64,000 nt of DNA, taken from positions 62,001 to 126,000 of the forward strand of contig CAJXCD010000002.1 of the NCBI GenBank assembly GCA_913051545.1. Reading direction: 5' to 3'. The notes beneath the pieces were generated by a model. That model searched no databases and had not been told where the DNA came from. It saw only the letters and a list, made by a program, of their open reading frames with translations. Position numbers and translations under genes: made by a program. Positions 1,046 through 25,795 of the stretch are shown piece after piece (the first letter of the stretch is position 1; each line of letters begins with the position of its first letter). Source of the stretch: an uncultured Chloroflexota bacterium. GTDB lineage: Bacteria; Chloroflexota; Dehalococcoidia; Lucifugimonadales; CAJXCD01.

Positions 1046-1227
1046 TCAGACCACTTAAATACAGATTCACGCTATTTTAGCATAAGATCATTCTCAAGTT
1101 GTAAGATATCATTACAGGGTTATTTTTCTTACACCCTCGTGCGAATTAACCTGATTTTAGAGTGTTGGTAGTTATTGGGTACACCCTCTGGGTTATAATA
1201 CCGGGGAAAGATTTGGAGGCCAAAGAT

Positions 1228-2601
1228 ATGGCGGCCGAGTTCCGAAAATTACCCAGCGTAGATAGTATCCTGTCGGATGAGAGGATAAAGGATCTTAGTG
1301 ATAAATACTCTCGCCTAGTAGTAGTTTCGGTTGTTAGAACTCAACTCGATTATGCAAGGAAATTATTAAAGGAGGGTGGTCACTTACTTGAAGTCGAAGA
1401 GCTTGTGACATCAGTTTTAGATAGTGTAAATCAACATTGGTTTCCATCACCTATCCAAGTTATTAATGCTACCGGCGTTATTTTACATACCAATCTTGGG
1501 CGCGCTCCTTTGTCTATTGAGGCGTTGGATTCCATCCGTCAGTCAAGTATGGGTTACAGTGACTTGGAATTCGATACCGGTACCGGACGTAGAGGTTCAC
1601 GACACTCCTACGCAGCAAGAATTTTGTCCCATCTAACTGGTTCCGAGTCCGCTATCGTAGTAAACAACAATGCATCTGCAATTATGTTAGGACTAGTAGC
1701 TATAGCATCTGGGTCAGAAGTTATTGTCTCTCGCGGGGAGTCTCTTGAAATAGGTGGTGGGTTCCGCATTCCGGACGTTTTAAAACAAAGTGGTGCTACT
1801 CTGATAGAGGTTGGAACTACAAACCGCACTTACGTTAACGATTATGAGGATGCCGTATCTGATCGCACTGGGGCGATTTTGTCTGTGCACTCCAGTAACT
1901 TTAAAGTTACTGGATTCACGCATTCACCATCTCTATTAGAATTGGTAAACCTTGGTCGTAAACATAACATTCCCGTTCTTCATGACCTGGGAAGTGGTTC
2001 ATTGATTGACACTTCGTTATTCGGCTTAGCTCATGAGCCAATGCCTCAGGAGAGTATTGCCGCGGGAGCGTCACTATCCTTCTTTTCCGGGGACAAGTTA
2101 CTAGGTGGTCCACAAGCGGGAATTATAGTAGGGGGTGAAGAGTATGTGTCGAAAGTTGCTAATCATCCTATAGCTAGAGCTGTTAGGATAGACAAACTTA
2201 GTTTATCAGCCCTTACTGCCACGCTCCTTGCGTATTTGAGAGACGATGTTATCTCAGTAGTTCCTGTGTGGGCAATGATTTCTGAAAAAGTTGATGCAAT
2301 TGGTGATAGGGCAAGAAATTGGAATCGGATCTTGGGAAATAAATATGAGGTTGTTGAAGGTTATTCAACTGTAGGAGGAGGGAGTCTGCCTGATCAACAG
2401 CTTCCTACTTGGTTGCTATCCATAGACCCAAGTCCTGACGGGTCAGATTCTTTAAGTGCCGCTTTGAGGAATGCTTATAAACCTGTTATATCTAGAATTG
2501 AAAACGATCGAATATTGCTAGACCCTCGTACAGTTTTGCATGACCAAGATGACGATCTGCTAGATGTAATAAAATCGGTGTTGCTAAGAACACAGTCCTA
2601 A
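1228..2601 (+). CDS. selA: L-seryl-tRNA(Sec) selenium transferase
   Basis: VINATGVILHTNLGRAPLS, VNNNASA, SGDKLLGGPQAG (PLP lysine). Start moved from 1162 to ATG 1228 (MAAEFRKLPSVD). Confidence 0.95.
   Translation: MAAEFRKLPSVDSILSDERIKDLSDKYSRLVVVSVVRTQLDYARKLLKEGGHLLEVEELVTSVLDSVNQHWFPSPIQVINATGVILHTNLGRAPLSIEALDSIRQSSMGYSDLEFDTGTGRRGSRHSYAARILSHLTGSESAIVVNNNASAIMLGLVAIASGSEVIVSRGESLEIGGGFRIPDVLKQSGATLIEVGTTNRTYVNDYEDAVSDRTGAILSVHSSNFKVTGFTHSPSLLELVNLGRKHNIPVLHDLGSGSLIDTSLFGLAHEPMPQESIAAGASLSFFSGDKLLGGPQAGIIVGGEEYVSKVANHPIARAVRIDKLSLSALTATLLAYLRDDVISVVPVWAMISEKVDAIGDRARNWNRILGNKYEVVEGYSTVGGGSLPDQQLPTWLLSIDPSPDGSDSLSAALRNAYKPVISRIENDRILLDPRTVLHDQDDDLLDVIKSVLLRTQS
1891..1914. repeat. 24-bp perfect palindrome inside selA
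   Basis: TCCAGTAACTTT|AAAGTTACTGGA read directly. Confidence 0.9.
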
Positions 2602-12643: not shown

Positions 12644-13141
12644 ATGAATATAGAGATCAACTATTGCCCGCGCTGTGGTAATAAACTGGTTAACAAGGGT
12701 GCTTCTGTACGATCTAGACCATCGTGTACAGATTGTGGGTATGTGGTGTATCTAGATCCGAAGCTTGCTACGGTGGTACTGATTTCGGTAGGTGACGAAT
12801 TGGTTTTAGTCCGGCGAGCAATAGAGCCGCAAATAGGACGCTGGAGTTATCCTGGAGGATATGTAGATCGTGGAGAAACAGTAGAGGCAGCAGCCGTACG
12901 TGAGGTGAAAGAAGAAACGACTTTGGATGTTAGCCTCACTGGATTTATAGGTCTTTACTCAAGTTCTAATAGGCCGGTTGTTATAGCAGCATATTCTGCT
13001 GAGGTGATAGGTGGCACTCCATCCGCAGGAGAAGAAGTTCAGGAGATCTCTTTATTTAGACCATCAGATTTACCGGAAATGCCTTTCCCGCATGACGATC
13101 AAATTTTAGCGGATTGGTATTTACTAACAGATGATGGCTAG
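12644..13141 (+). CDS. NUDIX hydrolase with N-terminal zinc ribbon
   Basis: NYCPRCGNKL...CTDCGYVVYLDPK; Nudix box GGYVDRGETVEAAAVREVKEET. Confidence 0.92.
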   Translation: MNIEINYCPRCGNKLVNKGASVRSRPSCTDCGYVVYLDPKLATVVLISVGDELVLVRRAIEPQIGRWSYPGGYVDRGETVEAAAVREVKEETTLDVSLTGFIGLYSSSNRPVVIAAYSAEVIGGTPSAGEEVQEISLFRPSDLPEMPFPHDDQILADWYLLTDDG

Positions 13142-13590
13142 GTGTCTATCTGGTTTACGGATCTAACGGTAATATCAATAGGAATAGTTTTTTCCAATAT
13201 CCTGTGTATACGGCACCGGCTTGCTATGTAATTCATCCTGTCCAACTGTTCTGAATTAAGGTCAGAGGTTATCTCAATGTCCATTTGGATTCGATCATAA
13301 AAACCTTTATTGACTTCCTCTGAATCGCCAGAGGGCCCTTGATAAAATTGATCATGAGTGCATTTGATAACGAGTGAATATATGTCCCAGATTTTTCTCC
13401 TCGCGTACAGGAGGAGTGTCATCGATGTTCAGGTGCTTAAGGAAGCTAAAAGGACTTCAAATGGACTGGGTCCTTTGCTGCCTCCTGAGGTCTTGAATTC
13501 ATCTGTGACAAAGGTGTGATGTGGAGTTTCCGCGATGTGTTGCATGTCCCGCATATTTCGCACAGTAACTGTGTGTGATTCCGTCTTCAT
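13138..13590 (-). CDS. OsmC-family protein with in-frame TGA (predicted selenocysteine, residue 54) at the reactive Cys position
   Basis: Manual translation MKTESHTVTVRNMRDMQHIAETPHHTFVTDEFKTSGGSKGPSPFEVLLASLST-[TGA]-TSMTLLLYARRKIWD...YIASRCRIHRILEKTIPIDI; the ORF track lists only 13138..13422; SD-like GAGGGG upstream of ATG at 13590. Confidence 0.85.
13397..13416 (-). promoter_or_regulatory. Candidate bacterial SECIS hairpin downstream of TGA (13429..13431)
   Basis: TGA-ACATCGATGACA-CTCCTC-CTGTACGC-GAGGAG; 6-bp GC-rich stem, GU in apical loop, loop G 21 nt after the TGA. Confidence 0.7.
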
Positions 13591-13598
13591 AAAACCCC

Positions 13599-14846
13599 TC
13601 ATATATTTCTTGTTATTTTGTCTTTTTTCACGAGATCATATTTTAGTCGTTGTAGAGCCAATATCGCTATTATAGCTATCAAACTAATACTACTAAATCC
13701 AATTACCCATTTGTATGATTCCTGAGAAATATCTAGTATAGTCCCGAAGGTTATTGGACCCAAAACGGCTCCCAAGAGTCCCAATGAAGCTTGTACTGCC
13801 ATAGCTGAACCTATCTTCTCCTTAGGTGTTGAGTCTAGTATGCCACTGGTGTATATGGCAGAATCTGCTGCTGTTGACCAACCATAGACTATTAAAATTA
13901 CACCTATCAAAGGCCACGGGAAACCTCCCGCCCAACCAATTAGCAATGAGCATATACCACTAATAGCGAATATTCTTATTGCTGATGTTAGACGACCCCA
14001 TTTGTCTGATATCGCACCTCCCATTACTGGTCCCAGAGCTCCTAGAGTCAGTGCTATACCTGCAACAGTGGAGCCGATAGCTTCCCCATTTTCAATCCCC
14101 TGGTTAATTAAAATACTTCCAAGCAATATCGGTAGTCCCATTCTAACGCTATATAATTGGAAGGCATGTAAGGAATACCCGAATATAAAATACTTAACTT
14201 GGCGGATTTTTAGTACGGAAAGATCGAGTTTGCCCGGCGTTTCTGTGTGGGGTTTGACAGGTGAGTGTGATCGTATAAGTATGTATAACACAGGTAAGCC
14301 AATAATAGATATAAGAGATAGTAAGAGATATGCTTGTCTCCATTCTAATGTGGTTAAGAGTGCTCCGGTTAAAGCCATAGATATGCTGTGGGCGCCATAC
14401 TGAGCAGTTACAAATATACCTGTCGATATTCCTGTGTATTGAGGATCAAATCGTTCCGATATGATCCTTACACCAGGCATGTACATCCCAACTAAACCAA
14501 CCCCGCATATTCCTCTGAGTACGATGGCAATTATCATATTTTCCGTAATTATTGGGAATAAGATATGAGTTATTATCGAAAGAATTGCTGATCCAAAAAA
14601 AACGGGTTTTGGTCCTACACGATCGGTTAATGGAATTATGAACAGTGCAGATATAAGATATCCAGCTAGATACGCAGAATAAACTACTCCTGCTTGGAAG
14701 TTATTTAAACTCCATTCGTCTTGAATATATCGTAAGGCGGCTACATAGCTGGATATTGGAAGTAAAAGCATAAAAAAAGAAAGCGATAATAGTATTAACC
14801 ATAAAATGTCTTTGCGTGCCACTTTATTTACGCCGTTCATTATCAT
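13599..14846 (-). CDS. MFS transporter
   Basis: Multi-TM; ISSYVAALRYIQDEWSLNNFQAGVVYSAYLAGYLISALFIIPLTDRVGPKPVFF. Confidence 0.88.
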   Translation of the reverse strand: MIMNGVNKVARKDILWLILLSLSFFMLLLPISSYVAALRYIQDEWSLNNFQAGVVYSAYLAGYLISALFIIPLTDRVGPKPVFFGSAILSIITHILFPIITENMIIAIVLRGICGVGLVGMYMPGVRIISERFDPQYTGISTGIFVTAQYGAHSISMALTGALLTTLEWRQAYLLLSLISIIGLPVLYILIRSHSPVKPHTETPGKLDLSVLKIRQVKYFIFGYSLHAFQLYSVRMGLPILLGSILINQGIENGEAIGSTVAGIALTLGALGPVMGGAISDKWGRLTSAIRIFAISGICSLLIGWAGGFPWPLIGVILIVYGWSTAADSAIYTSGILDSTPKEKIGSAMAVQASLGLLGAVLGPITFGTILDISQESYKWVIGFSSISLIAIIAILALQRLKYDLVKKDKITRNI

Positions 14847-22165: not shown

Positions 22166-22408
22166 TTATAAGTAACACTCAATAAGTAATACGGAATTGT
22201 TCATAAGTACTCTCATTTCACCTTCTACTATAATAGAAGGCCGAAGGTATTCCCTCCTTAAATCATACGGGAAATTTTCGATAGCATATCTCAACATAGT
22301 TCTTGCTATTTGTACAGCATACTTATCTAGGAAAGTTATTTCTACGTCCAGATTTTTCTTGCCAACTTTACGAAGCATCCATCCTACAGCTTTATATATT
22401 TTATCCAC
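22166..22408 (-). pseudogene. C-terminal remnant of an AlkD-like DNA alkylation repair gene
   Basis: VDKIYKAVGWMLRKVGKKNLDVEITFLDKYAVQIARTMLRYAIENFPYDLRREYL matches the AlkD C-terminal pattern (KAxGWxLRExGK...RTxLRYAIExxP); in-frame TAA just upstream, no N-terminal domain. Confidence 0.65.
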
Positions 22409-24703: not shown

Positions 24704-25795
24704 ATGGTAATGAATCAGTTAACTAAAAATAGGGTAAGAATAACAGTAGTTGGGGTTGGAGGAGGAGGAGGAAATACACTTTCTCGTATCGTTGATTGTG
24801 GCAATGATGATATGGATTTACTGGCACTTAACACAGACCTGCAGGCATTAAATATGGTTCATGGTGCACAAACATTTGCAATTGGTCCGGAAACTACTAA
24901 TGGTATGGGCTCTGGTGGTGAGGCTGACGTAGGGAGGAAAGCAGTTAGAGAGAGCCAGGAAAAAGTGTCAGGAATTCTAGAAGGATCAGATGTGGTGTTC
25001 ATTACAGCTGGTATGGGGGGAGGTACCGGTACTGGCGGGGCACCAGTCGTTGCAGACATCGCCCGTAAGCAGGGTGCCCTTACCGTCGCGGTTGTGACAA
25101 CTCCTTTTTCGTTTGAAGGTCATTTGAGAACTGAAGTTGCCTCTAAAGGACTTCGTCAACTTGAGTCTAAAGTGGACACAATGATATGTGTAGACAATGA
25201 CCGGTTACTTTCGAATATAGATAGCAGTTCAAATTTGGATGATGCTTTCCAACTTGCGGATGATGTTCTGCGTCAAGGGGTCGAAGGTATTTCTAAAATT
25301 GTTACAGGTATCGGCGTGATTAATGTAGATTTTGCTGATGTTAAGACTATTATGTCTAACGGGGGAAGATCATTTATGGCTATAGGGACAGGGAAAGGAA
25401 ATTCTGCAGCAATAGATTCTGTTCAAGACGCGCTCGAAAATCCTATGTTTGATGCCCCAATAAAAGGGGCATCAGGAATATTGCTAAATATAAAAGGTGG
25501 AAAGAACCTCAAGATAAATGAAGTAGAAGCTATTACACAAATGATAAGCGATGCTAGTGGCTCAGATCCTCAGGTTATGTTTGGGCTTACAAAGGATAAC
25601 AGCAGACAGTGGAGGAAAAAAGTCGAAGTTACAGTTGTGGCAACTGGAGTTCAAGGGGTAAACGAATTGAATTCCGAAGCATCGAATGTTGGTCAGAAAG
25701 TTTTCTGTCCAGTCCCCAAACCTATGCCTAATTTTTCTAATAATCGAATACCTGCTTCATCTTTGTTGGGATCCCATTTTCACAAAGGATCTTAG
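24704..25795 (+). CDS. ftsZ: Cell division protein FtsZ
   Basis: VVGVGGGGGNTLSRI, GMGGGTGTGGAPVVADIAR, VTTPFSFEG, NVDFADVKTIM. Confidence 0.95.
   Translation: MVMNQLTKNRVRITVVGVGGGGGNTLSRIVDCGNDDMDLLALNTDLQALNMVHGAQTFAIGPETTNGMGSGGEADVGRKAVRESQEKVSGILEGSDVVFITAGMGGGTGTGGAPVVADIARKQGALTVAVVTTPFSFEGHLRTEVASKGLRQLESKVDTMICVDNDRLLSNIDSSSNLDDAFQLADDVLRQGVEGISKIVTGIGVINVDFADVKTIMSNGGRSFMAIGTGKGNSAAIDSVQDALENPMFDAPIKGASGILLNIKGGKNLKINEVEAITQMISDASGSDPQVMFGLTKDNSRQWRKKVEVTVVATGVQGVNELNSEASNVGQKVFCPVPKPMPNFSNNRIPASSLLGSHFHKGS

Follow-up and report, generated by a model that had tools for sequence, protein, structure and literature searches.

An OsmC-family gene with an in-frame TGA, probably read as selenocysteine, at the reactive-cysteine position

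The DNA analysed here (the window) is a 64,000-nucleotide stretch of a contig from a bacterial draft genome. An OsmC-family gene, a candidate selenoprotein gene, lies at positions 13138..13590 (-), and its frame, read from 13590 to 13138, consists of an ATG-initiated run of 53 codons, a single TGA at codon 54 (13429..13431 (-)), 96 more codons, and a TAG stop. Apart from this TGA, the gene contains no stop or frameshift, and reading the TGA as selenocysteine (Sec) gives a protein of 150 residues with Sec at position 54 and Cys at position 126. A Shine-Dalgarno-like GAGGGG (13594..13600 (-)) stands just 5′ of the ATG and overlaps the TGA stop of an MFS transporter gene (13599..14846 (-)), which lies directly upstream on the same strand; this overlap suggests translational coupling of the two genes or an operon. 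Mechanical ORF calling lists only 13138..13422, which starts from an internal ATG (13422). The initial annotation had claimed that standard annotation truncates the gene and that the true frame has its own ATG at 13590 and its own Shine-Dalgarno sequence upstream of the listed ORF, and our reading of the frame confirmed both points.

Elsewhere in the window, a codon-usage scan for further read-through genes returned only implausible, largely antisense frames. A short ORF at 22166..22408 (-) matches the DNA alkylation repair profile PF08713 over its C-terminal 43 positions alone and looks like a gene remnant, and the product of a gene at 24704..25795 (+) matches FtsZ above the cut-off (TIGR00065, 335 bits).

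The joined translation was compared with the OsmC profile PF02566, as the initial annotation had proposed. Residues 36 to 140 matched profile positions 1 to 99 of 100 with 51 bits, against a gathering score of 27.5 bits. In the alignment, residue 54, encoded by the TGA, falls in the column of the invariant OsmC-family Cys, exactly where the reactive Cys had been placed by the initial annotation, and Cys126 falls in the column of the second invariant Cys, which is retained as had been stated. The genome has no other PF02566 match, so the gene is not a damaged copy of another OsmC gene. An AlphaFold2 model of the read-through protein adopts the OsmC fold (pLDDT 83), with residue 54 within helix 43-66. 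When the model was used in a structure search, the top PDB matches were OsmC/Ohr proteins at a probability of 1.00, with TM-scores of only about 0.5 to 0.55.

The codon aligned with the TGA was then read in relatives. Of 117 genomes sampled from relatives (all those listed belonging to the same order), 28 had a match to the window protein. Within the branch of the window protein, the same-order sequences, window included, carry TGA in 17 of 23 cases and TGC in the remaining 6. A second sample of 400 genomes drawn across the phylum yielded genus g129, which lies outside the class and in which five copies carry TGA and one carries TGC. Cys is thus the only alternative to TGA at position 54 among the branch homologs read, and the expectation that Cys or Sec would align there is borne out in both the order and g129. 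The presence of TGA at the same codon in independent relatives is more than chance would give, and conservation of the codon does not reflect mere recent copying, since identity between the window protein and the relatives compared reaches about 44% at most. The best relatives from named genomes have Cys at position 54 in 80 of 80 cases, perhaps in part because the named-genome search ranks Cys forms higher. In one genus, one species (L162) has TGC in its OsmC gene and a changed hairpin arm while still possessing tRNA-Sec, as compared with L161 and L163 to L166.

A hairpin predicted to act as a SECIS element, CTCCTC-CTGTACGC-GAGGAG (13397..13416 (-)), begins 12 nt 3′ of the TGA and carries UGUA in its loop. 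Bacterial SECIS elements are stem-loops shortly 3′ of the UGA whose small apical loop contains a G (PMC1088965); the apical loop of the window hairpin is CUGUACGC, with similar loops in relatives, and agrees with this description. The arms vary by subgroup (CUCCUC/GAGGAG or CGGC/GCCG), and the UGUA-type loop keeps its place. A search of the window with Rfam gave no SECIS-type match. The window hairpin has a z score of -3.3, and equally stable folds arose in 9 of 1,000 synonymous recodings that kept the protein. The mean z score was -2.0 in 17 TGA genes versus -1.0 in 6 Cys genes, although the two sets overlap: the hairpin signal is weak (-1 or above) in the relatives L030, L042, and L043, and two of the six Cys genes fall below -2. 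A direct comparison is offered by L025 (TGA) and L034 (TGC), which encode the identical peptide TSMTLLLYARRKGW: the hairpin folds in L025 only, where it is closed by the codons CGG AGG, which L034 does not use.

The initial annotation had named decay of the upstream portion as a sign against its reading. Selection was assessed in relatives, namely genus g129; the collection contains none close to the species of the window. For the five g129 Sec genes, dN/dS was 0.053/0.656 upstream of the TGA and 0.093/0.810 downstream (about 0.1). These data indicated purifying selection on both sides of the TGA rather than decay, so that in g129 both halves are translated and conserved. In the same genus, pS was 0.05 in the hairpin codons, and the 9-codon windows with the least synonymous divergence anywhere in the gene begin 2 to 6 codons past the TGA (median 0.41). 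This low synonymous divergence at the hairpin codons points to an extra constraint on the RNA where a bacterial SECIS belongs.

Genes for Sec synthesis and insertion are present in the host genome. An L-seryl-tRNA(Sec) selenium transferase gene, selA, is located at 1162..2601 (+) of the window (TIGR00474, 526.9 bits; cut-off, 267.9), 10.5 kb from the OsmC gene, in line with the distance of about 11 kb given initially. selB (619 aa) was found on contig C5, and selD on contig C3 (G000:C3:95668-96591; locus L017, 1474..2550 (+)), the latter with TGA for the established Sec residue of SelD (ANCAGUASKF). A second, different selD, which likewise has TGA in frame at this site, is located on C31 (G000:C31:5-814; locus L018), a 3.2-kb contig, and it may represent contamination or a paralog. 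Of the sel genes that the initial annotation wanted sought in the genome, selB and selD were thus present, but tRNA-Sec (selC) was not found in the draft assembly (31 contigs, 92.4% complete) by Rfam, by a model built from 20 relatives, or by a pattern search; the best Rfam matches were tRNA-Ser and tRNA-Leu. A convincing tRNA-Sec was identified in 19 of the 22 genomes with a TGA-type OsmC gene, the exceptions being the host, G046, and the 69%-complete G420. The Cys-type genomes G030 and G041 have no tRNA-Sec, which fits the Sec reading of the TGA-type genes. In the relative L057, tRNA-Sec adjoins tRNA-Thr(CGT), and none was found beside the tRNA-Thr of the window. Nor do the tRNA-Sec loci of relatives adjoin a conserved selA, selB, or OsmC gene, so synteny gives no pointer to a gap in the host draft. 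Since selA, selB, selD, and two Sec genes have been kept and about 8% of the draft is missing, an assembly gap is the likeliest cause of the absence.

The missing tRNA-Sec, together with the length of the window protein's branch in the OsmC tree (1.63), could fit a pseudogene, in which mutation of a Cys codon created a stop in a lineage no longer able to decode Sec. We regard this as very unlikely, because this TGA is shared by many separate genomes, the gene is free of other stops and frameshifts, the hairpin is kept in the window gene itself, and the genome retains selA, selB, and two selD genes, of which the C3 copy has a TGA at a known Sec site as well. Even less probable is a code in which UGA specifies an amino acid other than Sec, or a read-through that inserts Trp or Cys. 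The open frame itself would fit such a code, and a Cys-inserting tRNA would also give Cys54, but the TGAs of OsmC and SelD both lie at Cys/Sec positions in frames otherwise devoid of TGA, selA, selB, and selD are present, and UGA terminates the neighbouring MFS gene. The least credible explanation is that two products are made, with either a 53-residue peptide cut short at the TGA or the ORF of 94 residues starting from ATG 13422, which mechanical ORF calling reports, functioning alone, as that ORF lacks the OsmC domain start and the catalytic position, both halves are under purifying selection in g129, and the alignment with full-length Cys homologs is unbroken.

Thus, the UGA at residue 54 is, on the sequence evidence, very probably decoded as Sec, giving a full-length OsmC/YhfA-like redox protein. 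The conserved TGA, the hairpin, the selection pattern, and the presence of selA, selB, and selD all support this reading, which the initial annotation had put forward. Decoding would be carried out by SelB and tRNA-Sec, directed by the hairpin 12 nt downstream, and would place Sec54 in the central helix, at the site of the family's reactive Cys.

A 2005 report on the Sargasso Sea described OsmC-like selenoproteins with the motif UxxT (PMC1088965), and they have since been described again, always with this motif (PMC2398784, PMC9312934, and PMC13188914). These proteins (COG1765/PF02566, marine metagenomes, NCBIfam NF041052 OsmC_like_Se) belong to the same superfamily as the window protein, and the two share Sec at the reactive-Cys position, a downstream hairpin, and the second Cys. 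They differ in that the window protein carries U-T-S-M-T (UxxM) instead of UxxT, and its NF041052 score of 46.9 bits is about half the cut-off of 95, whereas the UxxT genes L045 and L046 score 144 to 152. The relatives L045, L046, L047, and L049 are of the known UxxT type (GIGFULLTxxKRYA), each with a TGA and its own downstream hairpin. The initial annotation was therefore right that OsmC selenoproteins are known, but those on record form the UxxT branch, to which the window protein does not belong. The openly licensed literature yielded no description of the UxxM branch.

In the OsmC tree, a starred branch (100/97) separates the UxxT group from the UxxM proteins, and among the latter, Sec and Cys proteins are intermixed, with at least five changes even if starred branches alone are taken into account; the tree was built from 139 columns, some of its branches are long (1.63 for the window protein), and gains and losses are indistinguishable in it. 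The closest named relatives in the UxxM branch include MAGs labelled Dehalococcoidia and Chloroflexi, and such proteins nest with a same-order genome in the tree, so the host probably belongs to the Chloroflexota. The UxxM Sec lineage, lying inside a widespread branch with the motif GPxPxELLLxxLgC(T)xMT, apparently had an origin separate from that of UxxT. Two Sec origins in OsmC are the simplest reading, albeit not a proven one; we consider it likely that the OsmC fold acquired Sec at one and the same site on two or more independent occasions and that UxxM proteins exchanged Sec and Cys several times among close relatives, even within a genus. If so, these proteins would form a natural series in which to ask what makes a bacterium retain Sec, and because Sec and Cys forms within one genus differ at the active residue and the hairpin, the cost and benefit of Sec become directly testable. 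Since standard annotation cuts such genes at the TGA and the curated Sec-OsmC model rejects UxxM genes, the branch has probably been under-counted.

The COG1765/YhfA-like OsmC proteins that contain Cys, some of them OsmC domains within longer proteins, belong to the same GPxPxELLLxxLgC(T)xMTLxxYARRK branch as the window protein (31 to 44% identity) and conserve both redox positions. They differ from it in having Cys for Sec, and most Cys members from the order have no such hairpin. The closest PDB sequence is 9wo1, of 400 residues. The UxxM branch appears nearer to the YhfA-type proteins, for which no activity is known according to PMC5962072.

With the Ohr/OsmC lipoyl-dependent hydroperoxide reductases, the window protein shares the fold and the two redox positions. 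By analogy with the Ohr/OsmC mechanism (PMC5962072), the selenol of Sec54 would attack a peroxide and become oxidised, Cys126 would resolve it through a selenenylsulfide, and a cellular reductant, either a lipoylated protein or thioredoxin, would reopen the bond. Such a thiol/selenol peroxidase role is a guess, because the catalytic Glu in the NPE motif of Ohr has no exact counterpart in the window protein. E45 lies one residue closer to Sec54 than the NPE Glu lies to the reactive Cys in Ohr/OsmC.
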